This document shows positions 39,811 to 49,641 of a stretch of DNA of 64,000 nucleotides, piece after piece. How positions within the stretch are numbered: the stretch's first letter is position 1; each line of letters begins with the position of its first letter. Where the stretch lies: NCBI RefSeq assembly GCF_003697785.1, contig NZ_QOKZ01000006.1, forward strand, positions 1-64,000. The letters run 5' to 3'. The notes under the pieces are model-generated. The model had not been told where the DNA came from and ran no database searches. It was given only the letters and a program-made list of their open reading frames with translations. Both the position numbers and the translations under genes were made by a program. Source of the DNA: Paracoccus alkanivorans (GTDB lineage Bacteria > Pseudomonadota > Alphaproteobacteria > Rhodobacterales > Rhodobacteraceae).

Positions 39811-41310
39811 TCATGAGCCGGAAGCACGCTCCAGATCCCGGTGGTCCAGCAGCAGCATATGGCCCTTGGTTCGCGCCACGACGATCCGGTCCCGCGGGAT
39901 CCCGAGCGCCTGCGCCACTTCACCGGTCAGCGCATCGCCCCCCACATGCCCTGCCCATATCAGCAACGGGCATGTTCCGATCGAAACCAGCGGCATCCAT
40001 GCCGTCGCCAGCCCGAAAGCCCCCTGTTCCAGCGTGACGCTGTTCAGATGCGGACGGTCCGCGGGTGGCAGGTAATAGGCATAGAACTCCTCGGGCCAGC
40101 GATAGACCGGCAGGATCGCCTGCCCGCAGCCCGGCAATCCGGTGACCTGCGCCGCCGCCTCGCGCCACTGATCCTTGACCTCGGCAGAGAGCCGTTGGGC
40201 CGAGGCGCCAAGCCCGATCACCGGCACCGCGATCCCCACCACGACCGCAAGAAAGCGCAGCCCGCCCGGCAATACCATCCGCAGCCGGTCGATCAGCGTC
40301 ACCGCAAGCAGGAAGAACGGCGGCAGCAGGATCAGGAGATTGCGGTCGGTGATTACCGGTGTATGCAAAGAGATCAGCAGGGCCCCGCCAAGCATCAATG
40401 CCAGCGCGACCACCGGCACGAACCCATCCGCCCGGCAGAGCCGCCCGGGCCGGGCAGCAAAGGCCAACATGATCGCAGCCGCCATCACGGCACAAAGAAG
40501 CGGCAACCCTACGGCCAGCCTTGCCGCTTGGGAAAGGCTCCGCTCCCAGTTATTGGTGATCCAGAAACTGCCGCTGAGCTGGTCCGTGATATGCGCGGCA
40601 TGAAAGATCAGCCATGGCAGGAAGAGCAACAGCGCCATCGATCCCGAAACGAGTATCGTCCCAAGCCGCGACCGATCCCTGATCACCGCGAATCCGGTCA
40701 GCGCCGCGAAACATCCAAACCCGACCAGGGCGCCGAAATAATGGCTGTATTCCGCCACGAGGATCACGGCGCTCAGCGCGAGGCATGGCCGCAGGATAGG
40801 CTGCCCCGCCTCTATCCGGCGGGCGATCGCCACGGAAAGCAGCACCGCAGCCGCGCTCAGCATCAGAAGCAGGGCGTAGACCCGGGCCTCCTGCGCATAG
40901 ATGACGGCGGCAGGCGTGCAGGCGAACCATCCGGCAAGCAGCCAGCGGCGGAAAGGCGAGGATGTCCAGCCGGGGATCAACGCCGCCGTCCCGATGAACC
41001 CGAGGCTAAAAAGCACGCTTGGCAGGCGCAGGCTGATCTCTCCCGCGCCGAAAAACTGCTGCCATTGCCGCATCAGGTATATGTATAGCGGCGGGTGCAC
41101 ATCCCCGAGTATCCATTCCTCCAGCCATTGCCCGAATGCCAAGCCGGGATCGGATTGCGCCGCCGTCCAGAGTTCGTCAAGCCACAGGCTCTGGCCGCCT
41201 ATATTCCAGAATCGCAAAATGGCGGCCAGAGCGATCAGGCAGCCCAGGACAAGGATCGCGGCCCCCTCGCCCCCAAGCCCGCGCGGGCGTGGGGGAGCAA
41301 GCGGAGTCAC
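39811..41310 (-). CDS. GT-C-type membrane glycosyltransferase (family 39-like)
   Basis: The product is 499 residues with about eleven membrane segments. The first periplasmic loop has SLWLDELWTAAQSDP followed by GDVHPPLYIYLMRQW, the acidic motif layout of GT-C enzymes that use a polyprenyl-phosphate sugar. The C-terminal 120 residues form a soluble periplasmic domain. It is the last gene of a minus-strand operon with prenyl-phosphate arabinose genes, so it is a good candidate for the transferase using that lipid. Acceptor is unknown. The start overlaps the previous stop by four bases. Confidence 0.75.
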   Translation of the reverse strand: MTPLAPPRPRGLGGEGAAILVLGCLIALAAILRFWNIGGQSLWLDELWTAAQSDPGLAFGQWLEEWILGDVHPPLYIYLMRQWQQFFGAGEISLRLPSVLFSLGFIGTAALIPGWTSSPFRRWLLAGWFACTPAAVIYAQEARVYALLLMLSAAAVLLSVAIARRIEAGQPILRPCLALSAVILVAEYSHYFGALVGFGCFAALTGFAVIRDRSRLGTILVSGSMALLLFLPWLIFHAAHITDQLSGSFWITNNWERSLSQAARLAVGLPLLCAVMAAAIMLAFAARPGRLCRADGFVPVVALALMLGGALLISLHTPVITDRNLLILLPPFFLLAVTLIDRLRMVLPGGLRFLAVVVGIAVPVIGLGASAQRLSAEVKDQWREAAAQVTGLPGCGQAILPVYRWPEEFYAYYLPPADRPHLNSVTLEQGAFGLATAWMPLVSIGTCPLLIWAGHVGGDALTGEVAQALGIPRDRIVVARTKGHMLLLDHRDLERASGS

Positions 41311-42044
41311 AACTTGATCGCCTTGAAGATCCGCCGCGGGATCGAGCGGATCACCAGCATGATCAGCCGCCAGAAAGCCGGCACATAGATCACGTCGCCG
41401 CCCTTGGTGATGGCGCGATGGATGCGCTGTGCGACCGCGTCGGGCTTGGCCCAGAGCAACCCCTTGTCGAAGGCCGCCGTCATCGGCGTGTCCACGAAGC
41501 CGGGCTTGATCGTCACCACCCGCACGCCGGATTTGTGAAGGCGCTGCCGCATCCCTTCCAGGTAACTGTCCACGGCCGCCTTGGCGGCGCCGTAGACGTA
41601 ATTGCTCTCGCGTCCCCGGTCGCCGGCCACCGAAGTGATGACCGCGATGGTCCCGGTCCGGCGCCGTTCGAAATCATTGGCCAGACGGGTGAGCAGCGCG
41701 ATCGTGCTGAGCGCGTTGGTGCGGAATTCCTGCAAGGTCAGGTCAACGTCATCCTGGCAGGCCTTTTGATCGGGCAAGGTTCCGTGGGCGATATAGGCGA
41801 TGTCTATCGGACCGATGGAGTTCTCGGCCGCAGCCAGCATCGCCTCGTGCCCTTCGAAATCATTCATGTCCAGTTCATGGCTGGCGGTTTGCTCGGCCCC
41901 GCGGCTCTTGAGATCGTCGCACAGGACGGCCAGCCGCTCCGCCCGCCGGCCCACCAGGAAAAGCCGGCACCCCTCTTCTGCAAACAGCCGGGCCGTGGCC
42001 TCGGCAATCGCCGAAGCGGCGCCCACGATCAACACATTCGTCAT
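41307..42044 (-). CDS. SDR-family reductase, DprE2-like
   Basis: The product is 245 residues, a classical short-chain dehydrogenase: cofactor site VGAASAIAEATARLF, HELDMND, and active-site ITSVAGDRGRESNYVYGAAKA with catalytic Tyr and Lys. SSDR features and the position next to a DprE1-like oxidase match DprE2, which reduces the 2'-keto polyprenyl-phosphoryl pentose to the arabinose form with NADH or NADPH. A C-terminal hydrophobic, basic tail (RLIMLVIRSIPRRIFKAIKL) may bind the membrane. ATGA overlaps dprE1-like gene. Confidence 0.78.
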   Translation of the reverse strand: MTNVLIVGAASAIAEATARLFAEEGCRLFLVGRRAERLAVLCDDLKSRGAEQTASHELDMNDFEGHEAMLAAAENSIGPIDIAYIAHGTLPDQKACQDDVDLTLQEFRTNALSTIALLTRLANDFERRRTGTIAVITSVAGDRGRESNYVYGAAKAAVDSYLEGMRQRLHKSGVRVVTIKPGFVDTPMTAAFDKGLLWAKPDAVAQRIHRAITKGGDVIYVPAFWRLIMLVIRSIPRRIFKAIKL

Positions 42045-43354
42045 AGATTTTCCTCCATCACGCGCCGCCAGAATCCCGATGAGAACCCCGGGTCGCGATA
42101 GGTTTCGAATTCCTGCCAGCGCGGAAATCCCTGCCGGAAGACTGCCGGATCCATCCGCGCGTCCTTGGCCGGATAGATCGCCCCGCCCGCCTCCATTACC
42201 ACGCGGTCGAGATCGGCCATCAGTTCAAGGCTGCGCGCCCCGCGATCGGGAATATCGAGGGCAAGCGTCACTCCCGGCCGGGGGAAGGACAGCAGGCCAC
42301 GCGGCGTGGCGTCTCCAAAGACCTTCAGCACCGACAGGGTCGAGCCACTGTTCGTTCCGGCCACCTTGCCGATAAGCGCTCCGACCGCCTCGCGCGCGAC
42401 GGCGCGGGGAACCACGCTCTGATGCTGGAAAAAGCCCCGGCGCCCGAACAGCCGGTTCCAGTTCGCCACCCGGTCGAGCGGATAGAAGAACGGCTCGTAA
42501 TGCGCGATCCCGCGTGGCGCGCGCGGTTTGGCATAGGTGAGAAAATTGAACGGGCGGACCACCAGCGACGGAACCATCGAGAATGGCGGAGTAAAGGGCG
42601 GCCCGGGCAGCGGGCGGGGCGCCGCCGGAGCCGGAGTTCCCGCAGGCGCATGGTTGCCGCGAAAGAACAGGCCCCGCATGTCGCCGGGATCGGGCCGGGT
42701 GCTGTCGATCCAGGCCGCCGTATACTCGAAATCGTCATGCGCGGCATCGCTGAGTTCCAGGAACCTGTCGAGATCGGTGAACTGCTCCACCTCGGTCTCG
42801 ATTGCCGGTCCGTGAACGGGCTTCAGCGCGATCTCGGCCCAGGTGATCAACCCGGTCAACCCCAGCCCGCCGATCGTCGCGGCGAACCAGTCGGCATTCT
42901 CGTCCGCAGAACATATCCGCCGTGTCCCGTCCGAACGCAAAAGCTCGAAGCGGCGCAGATGGTGGCCGAAGCTGCCGGCAAGGTGATGGTTCTTGCCATG
43001 CACGTCATTGGCGATCGCTCCGCCCAGGGTAACGAAACGGGTGCCGGGCGTGACCGGCAGGAACCAGCCGCGCGGCACGATCACCCTCAGGATCTCGTCC
43101 AGCAGCACGCCCGCCTCGCAGGCGAGCACGCCCGTCTCGGTATCGAAGGAAATGAACCGGTCCAGCCCCCTCATGTCGATGACGCTGCCGCCGGGATTCA
43201 GGCAACTGTCGCCATAGCTCCGGCCATTACCAAAGGGCAAAACCCGTCCCTCATCGCCGGGAAGCTCGAAATCCCGCCATCGCGGACGAAAGGCCCTGGA
43301 CAACGCCGCATCGGGCCGCCCCCAGGAGCGATACTGCCTTGTTCCTTCGGTCAT
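42041..43354 (-). CDS. FAD-binding oxidoreductase, DprE1-like
   Basis: The product is 437 residues, a vanillyl-alcohol-oxidase-fold flavoprotein. FGNGRSYGDSCLNPGG near residue 45 and GTRFVTLGGAIANDVHGKNHH near residue 110 are the FAD-binding segments shared with mycobacterial DprE1, and IYPAKDARMDP near the end matches the conserved active-site Lys region. DprE1 oxidises the C2' hydroxyl of decaprenyl-phosphoryl-ribose. The gene overlaps both neighbours by ATGA, as in an operon whose products act in sequence with the SDR reductase. Confidence 0.82.
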   Translation of the reverse strand: MTEGTRQYRSWGRPDAALSRAFRPRWRDFELPGDEGRVLPFGNGRSYGDSCLNPGGSVIDMRGLDRFISFDTETGVLACEAGVLLDEILRVIVPRGWFLPVTPGTRFVTLGGAIANDVHGKNHHLAGSFGHHLRRFELLRSDGTRRICSADENADWFAATIGGLGLTGLITWAEIALKPVHGPAIETEVEQFTDLDRFLELSDAAHDDFEYTAAWIDSTRPDPGDMRGLFFRGNHAPAGTPAPAAPRPLPGPPFTPPFSMVPSLVVRPFNFLTYAKPRAPRGIAHYEPFFYPLDRVANWNRLFGRRGFFQHQSVVPRAVAREAVGALIGKVAGTNSGSTLSVLKVFGDATPRGLLSFPRPGVTLALDIPDRGARSLELMADLDRVVMEAGGAIYPAKDARMDPAVFRQGFPRWQEFETYRDPGFSSGFWRRVMEENL

Positions 43355-44829
43355 GCGGCCACCACCATGACGACGCAGGACAGTGCCGCGAGCGCAAGGC
43401 TGATCCTGTCGCGGGCGGCAAAAACCACGGGATCGTCATGCATCTCTCCGCGATGCGTCAAAAGCCAGACCCGGGTGATCCAGAACAGCACGATGGGAAC
43501 CAGCGCCCACAGGATTTGCGGATGATCGTAAACGAGGCCGACATCCCGGCTGTTGATATAAAGGCCAAGAACGAAAGCCGAGATATAGCCCGCACCGGTG
43601 CCCATGCTGTCAAGCAATGGCAGGTCGCTGACCAGATAGCCGCGGCCCCGGCTGCTCTCCTTGTTCTGGTTGCGCATTACCGCCAGCTCGGCGCAACGCT
43701 TCACGAAGGCGAGGCTGAGAAACAGGAAGAACGCGAATGACAGCAGCCAGAACGACAGGGTGATCCCTGCCGCCGCGCCGCCCGCAACCACCCGCGTGGT
43801 GTAAAGCAGTGCCAGCGTCTGCACGTCCAGCCCCGGGATCTGCTTGATCTTGAAGCTGTAGGCGAGCGTCATCGCGTAATAAGCCGCCAGCGTGAGCGCG
43901 AATTGCCATGGCAGGAACAGCGTCAACAGGATGCTTCCCGCAAGCAGGATGGGGACCAGCTTCAACCCGGTCTGGATGCTGAGTTCACCCGAGGCGAATG
44001 GCCGTTTGCATTTGCGCGGATGCAGGCGGTCATCCGCCACGTCGATGATATCGTTGAGCAGATAGACGCTTGAAGCGCAAAGCCCGAATGCCAGAAAGCC
44101 CATCACGATCTGGCCAAAGGCCAGCATGTCGGCGGTCTGGAACGCCGCGATCAGCGGTGCGAACAGCAACAGATTCTTCAGCCACTGGTGAATGCGCATT
44201 GCCCGAAGATAGGTTCTCGGTCCGGCCTCGGAGCGCGGAAAGACATGCTCGACCGACGCGTTGTCCTGTGCCCAACGCGTGACGCGTGCAGAGGCATTCA
44301 CCACGATTGCGTGACGCGCCGCCTGCCAGATCGGATAGTCCACGCTGGCATTGCCGGCATAGTCAAAGCCCTTGGGGCCGAAACGCTCATGCAATACCGA
44401 CAGTTTTTCCAGACCGGTCCGGTTATGGATGCCGTCGCTGGCGAAAACCTCGTCGAAAAGCCCCGTTTCATCGGCGACTTCCCGCACCCAGGTCTCGTGA
44501 CTGCCGCTGGCAAGATAAAGCTGCCTGCCCCGGGCCTTCTCGGATTGCAGCCAGGCCATGAAGGGGCGGTTGAATCCCAATGTCGGTATCTCGATCTCGG
44601 CATGCTCGGCGACCTTTGCCTTCAGCGCGGCACGCCCGCCAAGCGCCCATACCGGCAAAAGCAGAAGATAGAACAGCGAGCGCTTGAGCAGCGCGATCAC
44701 CCCCTCGATCAGCAGATCACCCTTGATCAGCGTGCCGTCAAGATCGACGACGAGAGGTGGTGTCCCGTCCAGGGACTGCGTCGAATCCGCATCGCCGGAA
44801 TTGGGCGATATCGTCTCCAGCTTGGTCAT
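43351..44829 (-). CDS. HAD phosphatase fused to UbiA-type prenyltransferase (polyprenyl-phosphate phosphoribosyltransferase-like)
   Basis: The product is 492 residues. Residues of about 25-200 are a HAD phosphatase (VVDLDGTLIKGDLL with the two Asp at 29 and 31, and later GNASVDYPIWQAA). Residues of about 205-492 are a UbiA-type domain with MRIHQWLKNLLLFAPL, NDIIDVADDRLHP, and IPGLDVQTLALLYTTRVVAGG, resembling mycobacterial decaprenyl-phosphate phosphoribosyltransferase. One protein could thus make the phosphoribosyl lipid and remove its 5-phosphate. ATG 44829 has AGGA before it and follows the previous stop by four bases. Direct enzyme assignment is inferred. Confidence 0.78.
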   Translation of the reverse strand: MTKLETISPNSGDADSTQSLDGTPPLVVDLDGTLIKGDLLIEGVIALLKRSLFYLLLLPVWALGGRAALKAKVAEHAEIEIPTLGFNRPFMAWLQSEKARGRQLYLASGSHETWVREVADETGLFDEVFASDGIHNRTGLEKLSVLHERFGPKGFDYAGNASVDYPIWQAARHAIVVNASARVTRWAQDNASVEHVFPRSEAGPRTYLRAMRIHQWLKNLLLFAPLIAAFQTADMLAFGQIVMGFLAFGLCASSVYLLNDIIDVADDRLHPRKCKRPFASGELSIQTGLKLVPILLAGSILLTLFLPWQFALTLAAYYAMTLAYSFKIKQIPGLDVQTLALLYTTRVVAGGAAAGITLSFWLLSFAFFLFLSLAFVKRCAELAVMRNQNKESSRGRGYLVSDLPLLDSMGTGAGYISAFVLGLYINSRDVGLVYDHPQILWALVPIVLFWITRVWLLTHRGEMHDDPVVFAARDRISLALAALSCVVMVVAA

Positions 44830-44833
44830 GAAT

Positions 44834-45793
44834 TCATCCTTGCTCGCTTTCGAGATCAGCCACCGGCACGGGCCGGGGCCACGCCGCAAGCCCCAGCCAG
44901 GCCGCACCGCCCAATGCGATGGCGAACCAGAGGGTCGCGAGACGTACGAGAATGGTAACCGCCACCGCGGCAGGCATCGGCGCCCCCGCGAATATTAGCA
45001 GGGCGGTCATGGTGGCGTCGGCGCTGCCAAGGCCGCCGGGCAGGAATGTCAGCGCACCGGCCAGCATCGCGGTCGCATAGATACCGATCGCGGCGCCCAG
45101 ACCGATCTGAAGCCCGAGCGCGTCGGTCACCAGGTAAAGCCCTATCCCCTCTGCCAGCCAGGCGATCAGGCCTATCGCCAGTCCTCCGGCCAGCAGTCTT
45201 CCGCGGATCAGCGTGGTCAGGTCACGCCGAAAGCCCGGCAAGCGGGCGCCAAGAGAGCGCAGGCGCTCTGACGGCAGGGTTTGCGAGAACCGCTCCAGCC
45301 AGGTCAGGGCTACGGGATGCATGGCAGCCAGAAGCAGCAGGGTGATGCCTCCGCCGATCAGGGGCAGCCAGCGTGCCTCGGGCATCGGCGCCAGAAGCAG
45401 CAGGATCGCCAGCAGGCTGATCGCCATCAGGTCAAGAAGCCGTTCGGCCATAAGGATCGACAGCGACCGTTCGATTCTTGCGCCGAAAGGCCGCAGCAGG
45501 ATGGCCCTGACTCCCTCGCCGACCTTGCCGGGGGTCGCGGTCAGCGCGAAACCCGCCACATAGATCGCGAGATGCCGTATCAATGGAACCGAATGCCCGA
45601 GATCCCTCAGATAAATGTGCCAGCGCCCGAAACGCAGCACGTAATTGACCAGTGACAGGGCCAGAACCAGTATCCAGGTCGCCATGTCCAACTGCCGCGC
45701 CGAGGCCACGACCTCATCGAGATCGACCCAATAGGCCAGCGCCAGATAGACCAGCAGGCCGCCGATTATGAATGACAAAGTGCTAAGACGCAC
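44834..45793 (-). CDS. LPG-synthase-TM-like membrane protein (candidate flippase)
   Basis: The product is 319 residues with about eight membrane segments. The pattern VNYVLRFGRWHIYLRDLGH and AGFALTATPGKVGEGVRAILL with later LPGGLGSADA is the conserved core of the lysylphosphatidylglycerol-synthase transmembrane family (PF03706). In several glycan systems such proteins are linked to movement of lipids. As the first gene of the prenyl-arabinose operon it could flip the sugar lipid to the periplasm; this is inference. Confidence 0.72.
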   Translation of the reverse strand: MRLSTLSFIIGGLLVYLALAYWVDLDEVVASARQLDMATWILVLALSLVNYVLRFGRWHIYLRDLGHSVPLIRHLAIYVAGFALTATPGKVGEGVRAILLRPFGARIERSLSILMAERLLDLMAISLLAILLLLAPMPEARWLPLIGGGITLLLLAAMHPVALTWLERFSQTLPSERLRSLGARLPGFRRDLTTLIRGRLLAGGLAIGLIAWLAEGIGLYLVTDALGLQIGLGAAIGIYATAMLAGALTFLPGGLGSADATMTALLIFAGAPMPAAVAVTILVRLATLWFAIALGGAAWLGLAAWPRPVPVADLESEQG

Positions 45794-46078
45794 GAATGTT
45801 CCTTTCCTGCCTTGTCCGACTCGCCGGACCCGCCGAGCGGTCGCCGCTGCAGTGCGGCATACCGGACGAGATGGCCGGCGGATGGTTGCAGTTGGAAACG
45901 GGACAGTCCATTCACAGGTTCCCCAAATCCGGATTCACCCGCAAGATTCCGCCGAACACGGGTATGAGAGCCAATTGCTATGGAACAACTATGCTGCTCA
46001 TGAGATGAGCTTCTGTACCGCCCGAAAATATCGGTTCATGTTAAATTCACTACGCTCTCTGACGGTTCAGCGAATGCC

Positions 46079-47953
46079 ATGAAACAGAAAACCACCCTTG
46101 TTCTCGCCGTCACCGCCGTTGCGGTGACCGGGATCGTTGCGAGTCAGGCGCTTGCCGTCATGTCCGGCAATTTCTCGATGCGCCGGGCCGGAAACGAACT
46201 GGTCGAAAGCGTAAGCGAACGGCTTGGCGTCTCGGTCACGTTTCAGGACGACCCCGAGGTGACGAGTTTTCCGATACCCCGGATCATCGCGCGGGATGTC
46301 ACGGTAACCGAAAACGGCGAACCCGGCTCTGCTTCGTCGGTCACGGTCCCGGAGCTCGAGGTGTCGCTGAAGGTCCTCCCCCTGCTCATCGGGCAGGTGG
46401 AAGTGGAGCGGCTGACCATGATCGAACCCGAGATCCGGATCGTCAGCTCGAAACAGGGTGACGGCAAAGCGCCGTCCGGAACCGCCGCGCATGACCTTCT
46501 GCAAGTCATGGCGCTGGCAGAGGAACTGAGCGCCGAACTGGGTGCGTTCGAACTTCGTGATGCCAGCCTGAGTTTTGAAAATCCCCGGACAGGGGATGTC
46601 GAGAAGGTTCGCAACGCCGATCTGTCGGCCGCCTGGTCAAAGACAGCACAATCCATCAGCCTGGGTGGAACGGCCGAATGGCGTGGCGTGGAGCTTGATC
46701 TCAACGCCGCGCTTACCGAACCATCCGCCGCGCTGTCGGACAAGGGCAGCCCGATCAGCCTGTCGCTTTCGACGCAACAGGCCGAGACGTCCGATACCGG
46801 TGACGGAACATCCGCCTGGTCGTCCTGCCTGCTTCCCCTTGCATCCCGCCAGCCCATCGGCCCTATCGACATCGAGGGCATGCTGCGGGTAGACGGCAGG
46901 CGGGTTTCGCTTTCAGACGCGGATTTCAGCTTTAACGGTGGCGAGGCCGCGGGAGAGATTTCCGTCACGCAGTCGAAAGGCCGATCCCGGATCGAGGGCT
47001 CGGTGGCGTTCGAGACGCTGGATCTCGTCACCCTGGGCCGGGCCTATCAATCGGAAGATCACGACCTTGGCGCGATCATGTCGGTCAAGTCGGCCTGCAT
47101 GGAGGCGGGCGACACCGCCTTGTCGCTTGAAGCCGACGAACTTCGCCTCGGGCAATTCAGCGTGACCGATGCCGCGCTTGACCTCGAAACACGGGAAAAC
47201 CGCGTGGATTTCGACCTGCGCCGGGCCACGCTGGCCAATGGCTCGATTGCCGGGGAGGGTAATATCGAGGCGGATGACCGCGGGCTGGCCGTGGATCTGG
47301 ATGCAAGAATCACGGATCTGTCGGTGACCGAACTCGGCCAGGCATTCTGGTCGATCCATCGCAGCCGCCATCCGATCGGGATCGACAGCCCCCCGCGCGG
47401 AACCGCATCGGCCGAGTTCCGGGTTTCGGCTCGCGGGGAAACCCCCGCCGCGCTCTGGCAAGGACTCGAAGGCCATGGGCGGATACAGGTGCGGGACGGC
47501 AGCATCGATGGTGCGAATATCGTCGCGACCCTCGACCGCCTCAGGGATGGCAACGAGATCATCGCCAAGGGCGAGGCCCCCTTCGTTCCGGTGCCCGGCC
47601 GCACGCATTTCACCGAACTGAACGCGGCCCTTGTCGCCGAGGGCGGCACGGCGCGGACCGAACAGGTGCATATGGCGGGCGAGAATTTCGAGATCGAGCT
47701 TGCAGGCAAGCTGGGGCTCGATGGCGGCCTGATGGTGGCCGTGGGAACCGCCTCGCTGTTTTCCGGGGATGACGAAAAGGAATCCCGCCGGGACGACCCG
47801 ATCGTGGAACTTCCCTTTGGCGTGGGCGGTTCGGTCAAGCATCCGGGCATAGCCCCGGGCATCCCCCGGATCGGACCGCGCGCCGAAGCGGCACCCGCCT
47901 CGGAAAACTGCACCTTCCTGGAGCGGCCCGACCGCTGCTCGCGGCGTCTCTAG
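46079..47953 (+). CDS. AsmA-family protein
   Basis: The product is 624 residues. An N-terminal hydrophobic anchor (about 8-27) precedes an extended beta-rich region with the AsmA pattern LLIGQVEVERLTMIEPEIRIV, and a C-terminal repeat RIQVRDGSIDGANIVATLDRL typical of AsmA. AsmA-like proteins bridge the periplasm and are thought to carry lipids to the outer membrane. The tail has two cysteines (NCTFLERPDRC) that may form a disulfide. It is divergent from the arabinose-lipid operon, with 285 bases between, and is followed by a GT-C-like gene. Confidence 0.8.
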   Translation: MKQKTTLVLAVTAVAVTGIVASQALAVMSGNFSMRRAGNELVESVSERLGVSVTFQDDPEVTSFPIPRIIARDVTVTENGEPGSASSVTVPELEVSLKVLPLLIGQVEVERLTMIEPEIRIVSSKQGDGKAPSGTAAHDLLQVMALAEELSAELGAFELRDASLSFENPRTGDVEKVRNADLSAAWSKTAQSISLGGTAEWRGVELDLNAALTEPSAALSDKGSPISLSLSTQQAETSDTGDGTSAWSSCLLPLASRQPIGPIDIEGMLRVDGRRVSLSDADFSFNGGEAAGEISVTQSKGRSRIEGSVAFETLDLVTLGRAYQSEDHDLGAIMSVKSACMEAGDTALSLEADELRLGQFSVTDAALDLETRENRVDFDLRRATLANGSIAGEGNIEADDRGLAVDLDARITDLSVTELGQAFWSIHRSRHPIGIDSPPRGTASAEFRVSARGETPAALWQGLEGHGRIQVRDGSIDGANIVATLDRLRDGNEIIAKGEAPFVPVPGRTHFTELNAALVAEGGTARTEQVHMAGENFEIELAGKLGLDGGLMVAVGTASLFSGDDEKESRRDDPIVELPFGVGGSVKHPGIAPGIPRIGPRAEAAPASENCTFLERPDRCSRRL

Positions 47954-48039
47954 TTCACTTCCGACGAATGCCGCCACGAAGCAACGATATGCGCCCTCGG
48001 CGCGAGAACCGCACGAGGCGGTCGGGCAAGGAAAAAGAC

Positions 48040-49641
48040 ATGACCACAAAAGGCGAGAATCCTCCGTTCAGGCACCCGCTTCCCGACGCTCCGGGACGTG
48101 ACGTGATCGCGGATTGGTTTTGCCTGCACCGGGTAGCCATCACCGCGCTATGCGTATTCGCCGCCGCGCTCACATTCTTCGGCAGCCTGCTGTATCCCGG
48201 CCTGGGCGGTGTTTTGAACAGCGGCGATTCCGCCAAGTTCCAGGTTCTCGGACATACCTCGATCCTTGTGCATGGTCCCGGCTATCCGCTGGTCCTGATG
48301 CTTGGAACAGTGGTTCGTTTCCTGTCCCTGCCGGTGCCGGACTGGTGGGCGATGACTTTCGCGCTTTCCGCCATCCCGGGCTCCATCGCGATCACCTTCG
48401 CCTTCCTGATCGTCGAGCGCCTGACCCAGAGCATCGCATTCGGGCTGGCCGGAGCGATATGGCTGGCCAGCGCCAGCCTGATGGCGGTTCAGGCCACCGA
48501 GGCCGAGGTCTATGCACTGACCCTCGCCTTCATCCTCGGCACCAGTTTCCTGCTGATCCTGTTCGTGCAGACCCGCCGCCTGAATTTCTTCCTTGCCGCC
48601 TGCGCAGTCTATTCCCTGTCCTTCGGCAATCACCTGATGATGATCATGCTGGTGCCGATGTTCCTGATCGTCACCCTGATCCATTACCGGATCGTTCTGC
48701 GGTGGCGGCCCGTGGCGATCGTGCTGGGCTTCATCCTGCTTGGAGCGAGCCAGTATCTCTACCTGGCCTATATCGCATACAGCCCGGATACCGCCTATTC
48801 GGAATATATGCCGCTGCCGCCAGCGACGGTGATGGAGTTGATCCATTATATTCTCGGCACCTATTTCAGCGATCTCTACGGCTCCGGAATGCAGTCGACG
48901 CTGACGCTAGAGGCGCTCTTGACGACGTTCCGTTCTGCTTATCCCGGGCTTTCGCTGCCTCTGGTCATTGTGGGGGTGCTGCTGTTTTTCGCCGGATGGA
49001 CGCGGCGCGATATCGCCTGGCGCGGGCTCGCGGTGATCTATGGGACGGGCCTTTCCTTCGTCCCTTTCGCGCTCTGGTATGGCGCTTACGATATCCAGGC
49101 GTTTCATCTTCCGGTGCTGGGGCCGTTCCTGGTGGCATCAGTGGCCACGATCGGCTGGTGGCTTCGCGACCGCAAGCTGGCCTTCACGGTTCTGACAGCC
49201 GCGGCGCTGGTGGCAGGCCTAGTGCGTGCCGGGCAAACCGCCATGATCCTGAGCGAGCGCGAGCCGGCTTTCGCCGGGGTGCGTTCCGCCGTCGAGGAAC
49301 TGGTCAGACAATCGCCGGTGGAAAACCCGATCATCGCCATGTCCTACGGGGTGCGTATGGCGACACTTTATTACGAACTTCGCGGCGAGGTTCCCACCAC
49401 GCCGACCTACCGCGTGCATTGGCGCGCCATCGCGCTGGTGGAGGATCAGCCCTCGGTCGGCGGCATCGTCGTTCCGGCAGAGGGCTATCAGTTCGTCCGC
49501 TGGATCGAGGAAAAGCGCCCCGACATGACCTGCCGGACGCAGGAGCTTCGGCAATCCGAAGACGCGGCATGGCCCGCCTATTCCTTCGAATGTCACAGCC
49601 AGGCCACGTCCCCATCCGCTCCGGGAAACAGCCCCGGCTGA
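48040..49641 (+). CDS. DUF2723/TMEM260-like membrane glycosyltransferase
   Basis: The product is 533 residues with about eleven membrane helices. The first periplasmic loop SGDSAKFQVLGHTSILVHGPGYPLVLM follows the DSGEF-HPPGYPL pattern of the DUF2723 (TMEM260) family of GT-C transferases; human TMEM260 is an O-mannosyltransferase. The C-terminal part is a soluble domain. ATG 48040 follows AAGGA; the longer frame from 47968 is less supported. It starts 86 bases after the AsmA gene. Its donor may be a polyprenyl-phosphate sugar from the neighbouring operon. Confidence 0.72.
   Translation: MTTKGENPPFRHPLPDAPGRDVIADWFCLHRVAITALCVFAAALTFFGSLLYPGLGGVLNSGDSAKFQVLGHTSILVHGPGYPLVLMLGTVVRFLSLPVPDWWAMTFALSAIPGSIAITFAFLIVERLTQSIAFGLAGAIWLASASLMAVQATEAEVYALTLAFILGTSFLLILFVQTRRLNFFLAACAVYSLSFGNHLMMIMLVPMFLIVTLIHYRIVLRWRPVAIVLGFILLGASQYLYLAYIAYSPDTAYSEYMPLPPATVMELIHYILGTYFSDLYGSGMQSTLTLEALLTTFRSAYPGLSLPLVIVGVLLFFAGWTRRDIAWRGLAVIYGTGLSFVPFALWYGAYDIQAFHLPVLGPFLVASVATIGWWLRDRKLAFTVLTAAALVAGLVRAGQTAMILSEREPAFAGVRSAVEELVRQSPVENPIIAMSYGVRMATLYYELRGEVPTTPTYRVHWRAIALVEDQPSVGGIVVPAEGYQFVRWIEEKRPDMTCRTQELRQSEDAAWPAYSFECHSQATSPSAPGNSPG

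Follow-up and report, generated by a model that had tools for sequence, protein, structure and literature searches.

A candidate lipid-linked D-arabinofuranose locus in Paracoccus alkanivorans and its AsmA-like, TMEM260-like and GH183 partners

A seven-gene locus at positions 39811-49641 of a 64,000-nucleotide stretch of Paracoccus alkanivorans DNA (contig NZ_QOKZ01000006.1, positions 1 to 64,000; the whole stretch is called the window below) probably makes and uses polyprenyl-phosphoryl-D-arabinofuranose, a donor that would be flipped and polymerised as a short D-arabinan on an envelope acceptor, with trimming by a GH183 endo-D-arabinanase. To the initial annotation the gene set had looked sufficient for the synthesis, flipping and use of a lipid-linked pentose donor, and this core reading is supported, since the families and residues of the donor enzymes match. 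The enzyme families, the active-site residues and the linkage of the genes are observed here directly.

In the proposed route, the UbiA half of a HAD-UbiA fusion would convert 5-phosphoribosyl pyrophosphate (PRPP) to polyprenyl-phosphate ribose-5-phosphate, the HAD half would strip the 5-phosphate to leave polyprenyl-phosphate ribose, and a DprE1-like flavin adenine dinucleotide (FAD) oxidase together with a DprE2-like short-chain dehydrogenase/reductase (SDR) would invert C2 to give the arabinofuranose donor; these first steps are proposed because the enzyme families have biochemistry in other organisms. An LPG_synthase_TM protein would flip the arabinose donor, periplasmic initiation and elongation of a short D-arabinan on the envelope acceptor would fall to the GT-C-like and TMEM260-like transferases, an AsmA-like protein would assist delivery of the product to the outer membrane, and GH183, encoded elsewhere in the host genome and within the locus in relatives, would trim the arabinan. 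The identity of the sugar, the flippase role, the order of the transferases, the acceptor and the AsmA step are what we infer, and a polymer is proposed because GH183 is linked to synthesis loci in relatives. The initial annotation had guessed at arabinose or another pentofuranose; the finding of GH183 beside synthesis genes sharpens that guess to D-arabinan, with D-arabinofuranose as the most likely sugar.

Donor enzymes and the flippase slot

The HAD-UbiA fusion (43351-44907, minus strand) is predicted to be a polyprenyl-phosphate 5-phosphoribosyltransferase joined to a 5-phosphate phosphatase. It scores 630.5 bits against PRK08238 (cut-off 351) and at most 151.5 bits against the decaprenyl-phosphate phosphoribosyltransferase models, under their cut-offs, and among solved sequences its UbiA half is closest to Rv3806c (8j8j_D, E 2.6e-23). 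Residues of Rv3806c that bind PRPP, Mg and the lipid phosphate are named in PMC10994848; mapped on the 8j8j alignment, 11 of the 13 published PRPP and lipid-phosphate residues are identical in the window protein (R22, K28, Y70, N73, D77, K87, R90, Y138, K143, Y157 and K191 in Rv3806c numbering), and two are changed (Q135 to T, K208 to R). The UbiA assignment of the initial annotation is upheld by the PRK08238 score, the Rv3806c match and the presence of this PRPP site, the last a comparison that it could have failed. Structure prediction points the same way: a model built from 30 aligned proteins (predicted local distance difference test, pLDDT, 90.9) has PRPP-bound Rv3806c as its top fold match, with template modelling (TM) scores, by target length, of 0.83 for 8j8j_A and 0.80 for 8j8k_A, other UbiA enzymes among the listed fold matches reaching 0.74 at best. 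The HAD half of the model resembles phosphoserine phosphatase folds, and the motif residues D55 and D57 are invariant in all 30 aligned proteins; D55, the first HAD aspartate, would be the catalytic nucleophile by likeness to D18 of Citrobacter ORF15.

The profile searches proposed at the same time, against the DprE1, DprE2 and Rv3806c families, matched the FAD protein, the SDR and the HAD-UbiA fusion respectively. The FAD protein (42041-43354, minus strand, 437 residues) scores 339.8 bits against the DprE1 model NF053785, under the equivalog cut-off of 500, the next family reaching 34.3 bits; its best solved relatives are DprE1 chains (E 1.3e-70 to 5.7e-68), followed by xylitol oxidase (E 1.8e-12). 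Both the HGKNHH motif of DprE1 and the lysine of its YTAKDSR motif are aligned and identical in the window protein. The SDR (41307-42044, minus strand, 245 residues) scores 334.4 bits against PRK07102 (cut-off 267) and 181 bits against the DprE2 model NF053786, under the equivalog cut-off of 250, and its best solved relative is a DprE2 chain, 21gq_C (E 6.1e-29), from an entry that also holds DprE1. The proposed DprE1-like and DprE2-like identities thus hold by best family and best solved matches; the mycobacterial equivalog cut-offs being missed, we name the two proteins DprE-like and not proven equivalogs. Homologues in Tateyamaria score 417.1 bits for DprE1 (also below the cut-off), 199.9 for DprE2 and 585.4 for PRK08238. 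The cysteine of the WNIC motif in Mycobacterium tuberculosis DprE1, which we take to be the benzothiazinone target, is alanine in the window FAD protein, and for this reason the enzyme may be naturally insensitive to covalent benzothiazinone attack.

All seven open reading frames (ORFs) are present where the initial annotation had placed them, five on the minus strand and two divergent on the plus strand, and every protein except the GT-C-like one passes the Pfam curated cut-off for at least one family (6 of 7). The minus-strand run is as tight as had been described, with 4-base overlaps at the GT-C/SDR, SDR/FAD and FAD/UbiA junctions; with the GTG start listed for it, HAD-UbiA would overlap the LPG_synthase_TM gene, but its true start is probably the ATG at 44829, which would leave a 4-base gap. 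We compared 120 loci, comprising the best 80 of at least 583 relatives of the window FAD protein found in a scan of named genomes and 40 loci from the host's family, Rhodobacteraceae. The gene order LPG-UbiA-FAD-SDR is common among them, so the arrangement in the window is not chance.

The LPG_synthase_TM / TIGR00374 protein (44834-45793, minus strand, 319 residues) scores 161 bits against PF03706 and 95.7 bits against TIGR00374 (cut-off 43.2), and is predicted to be the donor flippase. The main support for this role is that GtrA and LPG_synthase_TM replace each other. In the 95 of the 120 loci where UbiA, FAD and SDR were all detected, the fetched stretch holds LPG_synthase_TM only in 38, GtrA only in 29, both in 8 and neither in 20 (odds ratio 0.15, p 4.8e-5, uncorrected for kinship; 11 of the 120 fetched stretches are shorter than 8 kb). 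The family subset, with a full core in 26 of 40 loci, gives 14, 11, 0 and 1. From this replacement we infer that the protein flips the pentose donor, and nominate LPG_synthase_TM proteins as pentose-donor flippases; the authors of the Citrobacter study note that, for the candidates known so far, flippase activity has not been demonstrated directly (PMC11127046).

The AsmA/TMEM260-like pair and GH183

Divergent from the donor genes are an AsmA-like gene (46079-47953, plus strand, 624 residues; PF05170, 72.4 bits), whose product is a predicted envelope transport or assembly factor, and a gene for a TMEM260-like (DUF2723-type) membrane glycosyltransferase (47968-49641, plus strand, 557 residues; PF11028, 46.1 bits). 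This pair is rare in the family, and its linkage with GH183 is the new element here. The TMEM260-like protein is found in 2 of 149 and 4 of 394 family genomes (overlapping samples, host included), and in 1 of 385 genomes of the class, which is the host itself. A search of 72,556 plasmid records gave a single hit, Tateyamaria omphalii pDOK1-4-1, where the protein is annotated DUF2723; the homologues in the three other family genomes and on the plasmid are 52-58% identical. The pair as such was found solely in family genomes and Tateyamaria. The window's divergent arrangement of HAD-UbiA and the pair recurs in the Tateyamaria locus (L169) and in loci of two family genomes (L170 of G789 and L129 of G125). 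After the pair, all three loci have DUF4185/GH183, a gene for a short protein, and sulfotransferase and arylsulfotransferase-like genes. Genome G762 is split, with the pair on one contig (L171) and GH183, HAD-UbiA, GtrA, FAD and SDR consecutive on another (L185).

GH183 (DUF4185) enzymes are endo-D-arabinanases, reported to cut D-arabinan (PMC10115798, PMC10509167). They occur in 3 of the 149 family genomes, namely the host (G000), G125 and, weakly, G060 (39.3 bits), and in all four family genomes that have the TMEM260-like protein as well as in the Tateyamaria plasmid locus; co-occurrence of GH183 with the TMEM260-like protein in the 149-genome sample gives a Fisher p of 2.7e-4, uncorrected for kinship. 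GH183 lies inside the cassette stretch in 3 of the 120 loci, L129, L004 (Chelativorans) and L005 (Mesorhizobium), the last two being the loci with the closest FAD proteins among the best 80 of at least 583 relatives, and it is also present within L170, while in L185 it immediately precedes UbiA-GtrA-FAD-SDR. The host GH183 gene (G000:C3 72804-74075, minus strand; L163 2805-4076) scores 297.1 bits against PF13810, has the endo-alpha-D-arabinanase 8hhv as its best solved match (E 1.2e-57), and keeps the catalytic aspartate D51 of EndoMA1, which is asparagine in the D51N complex structure 8ic1. On plasmids it matches 14 records, of which Tateyamaria supplies one (66.6% identity) and Rhodococcus, Tsukamurella, Nocardia and Gordonia the remaining 13.

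The donor cores behind these partners are of two kinds. In a midpoint-rooted FastTree tree of 114 FAD proteins, all of them relatives of the window protein, the window protein forms a clade with those of L004 and L005 (support 0.999). These sit with 77 further sequences from outside the family, and the 34 family tips, the Tateyamaria protein included, all fall elsewhere. The UbiA, SDR and LPG_synthase_TM proteins of the window also score highest, across the 120 loci, in L004 and L005. Judged from these sequences, a Rhizobiales-type core appears to have been joined in the window to an AsmA/TMEM260 partner set of resident-family type, and the same partners in Tateyamaria are joined to what is, by its place in the tree, a resident-type core. 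That two distant DprE cores are each coupled to this one partner set speaks for a common function.

Within the genus, relatives of the FAD protein at E 1e-20 occur in 6 of 101 genomes; one of these is the host, and in the remaining five the identity is 42-44%. Plasmids yield 67 records with FAD relatives, all below 60% identity and 34 of them from Rhizobium. The locus is flanked by dnaX-ybaB-recR on one side and by SRPBCC/ArsR/TrmB-type frames (the latter named by eye), and the window holds no tRNA genes. In 7 of 7 genus relatives the stretch after recR (about 3 to 10 kb compared) lacks the island genes at E 1e-10, one further genus genome giving no recR match; the right-flank genes of the window are missing after recR in the same seven, so a clean empty insertion site was not established. 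The G+C content of the island (0.635, against 0.628 for the window) gives no compositional sign of transfer.

Some further observations concern the related loci. In L069, from Dictyobacter arantiisoli (presumably Chloroflexota), the FAD and SDR genes are present and HAD-UbiA was not detected in the fetched stretch. A gene annotated as a glucan biosynthesis protein in Tateyamaria (L169 8434-10062), with a relative in L170 (18648-19901), stands at the GT-C-like end of the locus; the window contains no relative of it at E 0.001. The host has scattered relatives of the Tateyamaria arylsulfotransferase-like genes, in a sulfotransferase/arylsulfotransferase-like pair on contig C9 (L182 3-2887, contig end) and in further genes on C10 (L183 8792-10126) and C20 (L184 2-1459, contig end); Arylsulfotran_2 genes were dropped as a module marker for want of specificity, being present in 12 of 148 family genomes. 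A GH183 from Myxococcus is among the enzymes tested in PMC10115798. Loci of Corallococcus, Myxococcus and Myxococcaceae (L065, L070, L078, L082 and L083) carry UbiA-FAD-SDR cassettes, so the Myxococcus enzyme might serve an arabinan of the cell itself and not predation.

Weighing the alternatives

Several observations weigh against the proposed D-arabinan route, among them the shortfall of both DprE-like proteins from the equivalog cut-offs. The GT-C assignment of the 499-residue membrane protein encoded at 39811-41310 (minus strand), the predicted user of the lipid-linked pentose, is a weak one, drawn from TIGR03663 (26.6 bits, cut-off 126.25) and from a single plasmid hit that carries a glycosyltransferase family 39 annotation (34.6% over 121 residues); the protein matches zero Pfam families at E 0.001, and hence no Emb/Aft arabinosyltransferase domain. 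The AsmA family is not specific, the AsmA-like protein also matching 52 Sinorhizobium/Ensifer plasmid records (among those listed, about 25% identity over 60%). L129 has its AsmA/TMEM260/GH183 set beside a dprE2 remnant only, with no dprE1. GH183 is far rarer than the cassette, in 3 of 149 genomes against 60 of 149 above the HAD-UbiA cut-off. The host GH183 gene lies on a contig other than that of the window locus, its neighbours are GH4-like and ABC-transporter-like genes (named by eye), and no clear hydrophobic leader is seen in its frame, for which reasons it could be catabolic or defective; its maximum 13-residue hydropathy ahead of the domain is 0.58, compared with 2.25-2.99 in five of six relatives and 0.82 in Tateyamaria. 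A misassigned start or an eroded leader are possible causes of the missing leader.

Two of these items call for a fuller description. Searched across the 149 family genomes, the GT-C-like protein found two weak relatives (31% and 27%) other than itself; phmmer at E 1 gave none in the 120 loci, and the Tateyamaria GT-C-like protein matches no window frame at E 0.001; a transferase family shared across loci was dropped for these reasons. A single-sequence AlphaFold model of the window protein (pLDDT 42.5) was not used. L129 (G125:C11) has HAD-UbiA, GT-C-like, AsmA, TMEM260-like and GH183 frames as neighbours, and G125 has a second cassette, L110 (UbiA, GtrA, FAD and SDR), from which the L129 locus might receive its donor. 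A 247-residue ORF there (L129:8283-9026) was rejected as a new partner because its frame overlaps a GtrA gene and ends in the dprE2-like remnant.

It is unlikely, in our view, that the locus makes the arabinose donor just to decorate a pre-existing glycan, lipid or pilin with single or very short arabinofuranose (Araf) units, with no arabinan made and GH183 incidental. Such an outcome would accord with the published Gram-negative pentofuranose systems, described in PMC11127046 as side-chain modification or, in Pseudomonas, pilin glycosylation, with the presence of just one GT-C-like and one TMEM260-like gene in the window locus, and with a host GH183 that is unlinked and without a clear leader; an endo-arabinanase gene that lies within or next to the genes for synthesis, as it does in Tateyamaria, G789, G762, G125 and two Rhizobiales loci, would however be hard to explain without at least an oligomer. 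The same gene positions make us regard it as quite unlikely that the host GH183 scavenges foreign arabinan and that its co-occurrence with AsmA/TMEM260 reflects shared ancestry or a mobile element: GH183 follows the TMEM260-like gene within a synthesis locus in L169, L170 and L129, precedes HAD-UbiA in L185, and is found in loci of both Rhizobiales-type and resident-type DprE cassettes, which are distantly related. On the side of scavenging are the ABC-transporter and GH4-like genes near the host gene, the co-occurrence counts uncorrected for relatedness, and the plasmid-borne state of the Tateyamaria set. We hold it very unlikely that the locus yields a different pentofuranose (ribose or xylose) through a FAD/SDR pair that has drifted from DprE specificity, an idea that draws on the missed DprE1 and DprE2 cut-offs, on L129, which retains neighbouring genes without dprE1, and on Citrobacter, where related machinery adds ribofuranose (Ribf) or xylofuranose (Xylf) (PMC11127046).

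Our preferred reading is thus that of a lipid-linked D-arabinofuranose donor used for a short, GH183-trimmed arabinan. A broader proposition, put forward tentatively as possible and somewhat short of probable, is that some free-living alphaproteobacteria (the host is taken to be free-living, as the initial annotation stated) have a true D-arabinan, possibly sulfated, made by a mycobacteria-like lipid-linked route with a dedicated export module. That module would comprise the AsmA-like and TMEM260-like proteins and GH183, to which several relatives add a sulfotransferase/arylsulfotransferase pair, and would have become attached separately to two distantly related DprE cassettes with two different flippase types. 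If true, a linked make-and-trim module would add Gram-negative envelopes to the places where D-arabinan occurs, point to a function for AsmA-like and TMEM260-like proteins, and offer harmless alphaproteobacterial systems for the study of DprE, donor flippases and arabinan assembly.

Comparison with known systems

D-arabinan is described as an unusual component of mycobacterial-type walls, short D-Araf chains being reported on Pseudomonas pilin and a few lipopolysaccharides. The novelty that the initial annotation implied for the pathway in a Gram-negative was overstated, polyprenyl-phosphate pentofuranose donors having been shown or proposed in Citrobacter, Pseudomonas and others (PMC11127046); since systems with HAD-UbiA and DprE1/E2 were published by Kelly et al. 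2024, the donor pathway of the window is not new and belongs to a known kind. That work (PMC11127046) demonstrated by biochemistry that the HAD-UbiA fusion ORF15 of Citrobacter produces polyprenyl-phosphate ribofuranose with PRPP as substrate. Its authors propose a MATE protein for the flipping step, describe periplasmic use of the donor by a GT-C enzyme, and report DprE1/E2 homologues in systems of Araf-containing glycans. The window resembles the three-component system of Citrobacter youngae O1/O2, which consists of a HAD (PRP)-UbiA fusion, a flippase and a GT-C transferase of family GT136, with DprE1/E2 in Araf versions. Unlike that system, the window locus has no MATE-family flippase, its slot being filled by LPG_synthase_TM, has no O-antigen genes recognised beside it, and has AsmA-like and TMEM260-like partners, with GH183 linked in relatives.

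With the mycobacterial decaprenylphosphoryl-arabinose pathway (Rv3806c, Rv3807c, DprE1, DprE2, Rv3789) the window shares a UbiA phosphoribosyltransferase and DprE1-like and DprE2-like proteins, and GH183 enzymes also occur in mycobacteria. It differs in its phosphatase, a fused HAD and not of the Rv3807c type, in its flippase-like protein, in a GT-C-like protein without an Emb/Aft Pfam match, and in DprE scores under the equivalog cut-offs. Azorhizobium noeC, noeH and noeO have been likened to mycobacterial arabinosylation proteins, and noeCHOP is part of a nod operon, acting in Nod-factor arabinosylation (PMC2443382). Among open-licence papers we found no description of an AsmA/TMEM260/GH183 module and nothing that links Rhodobacteraceae with DprE1 or GH183 with DprE1.

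Tateyamaria omphalii pDOK1-4-1 (NZ_CP019313.1) offers a further likeness: there too, AsmA and DUF2723 (TMEM260-like) genes run divergently from those for HAD-UbiA, FAD and SDR. Unlike the window, that locus has GtrA in place of LPG_synthase_TM and a GT-C-like protein without detectable similarity, and it carries the GH183, sulfotransferase and arylsulfotransferase genes within the locus itself.

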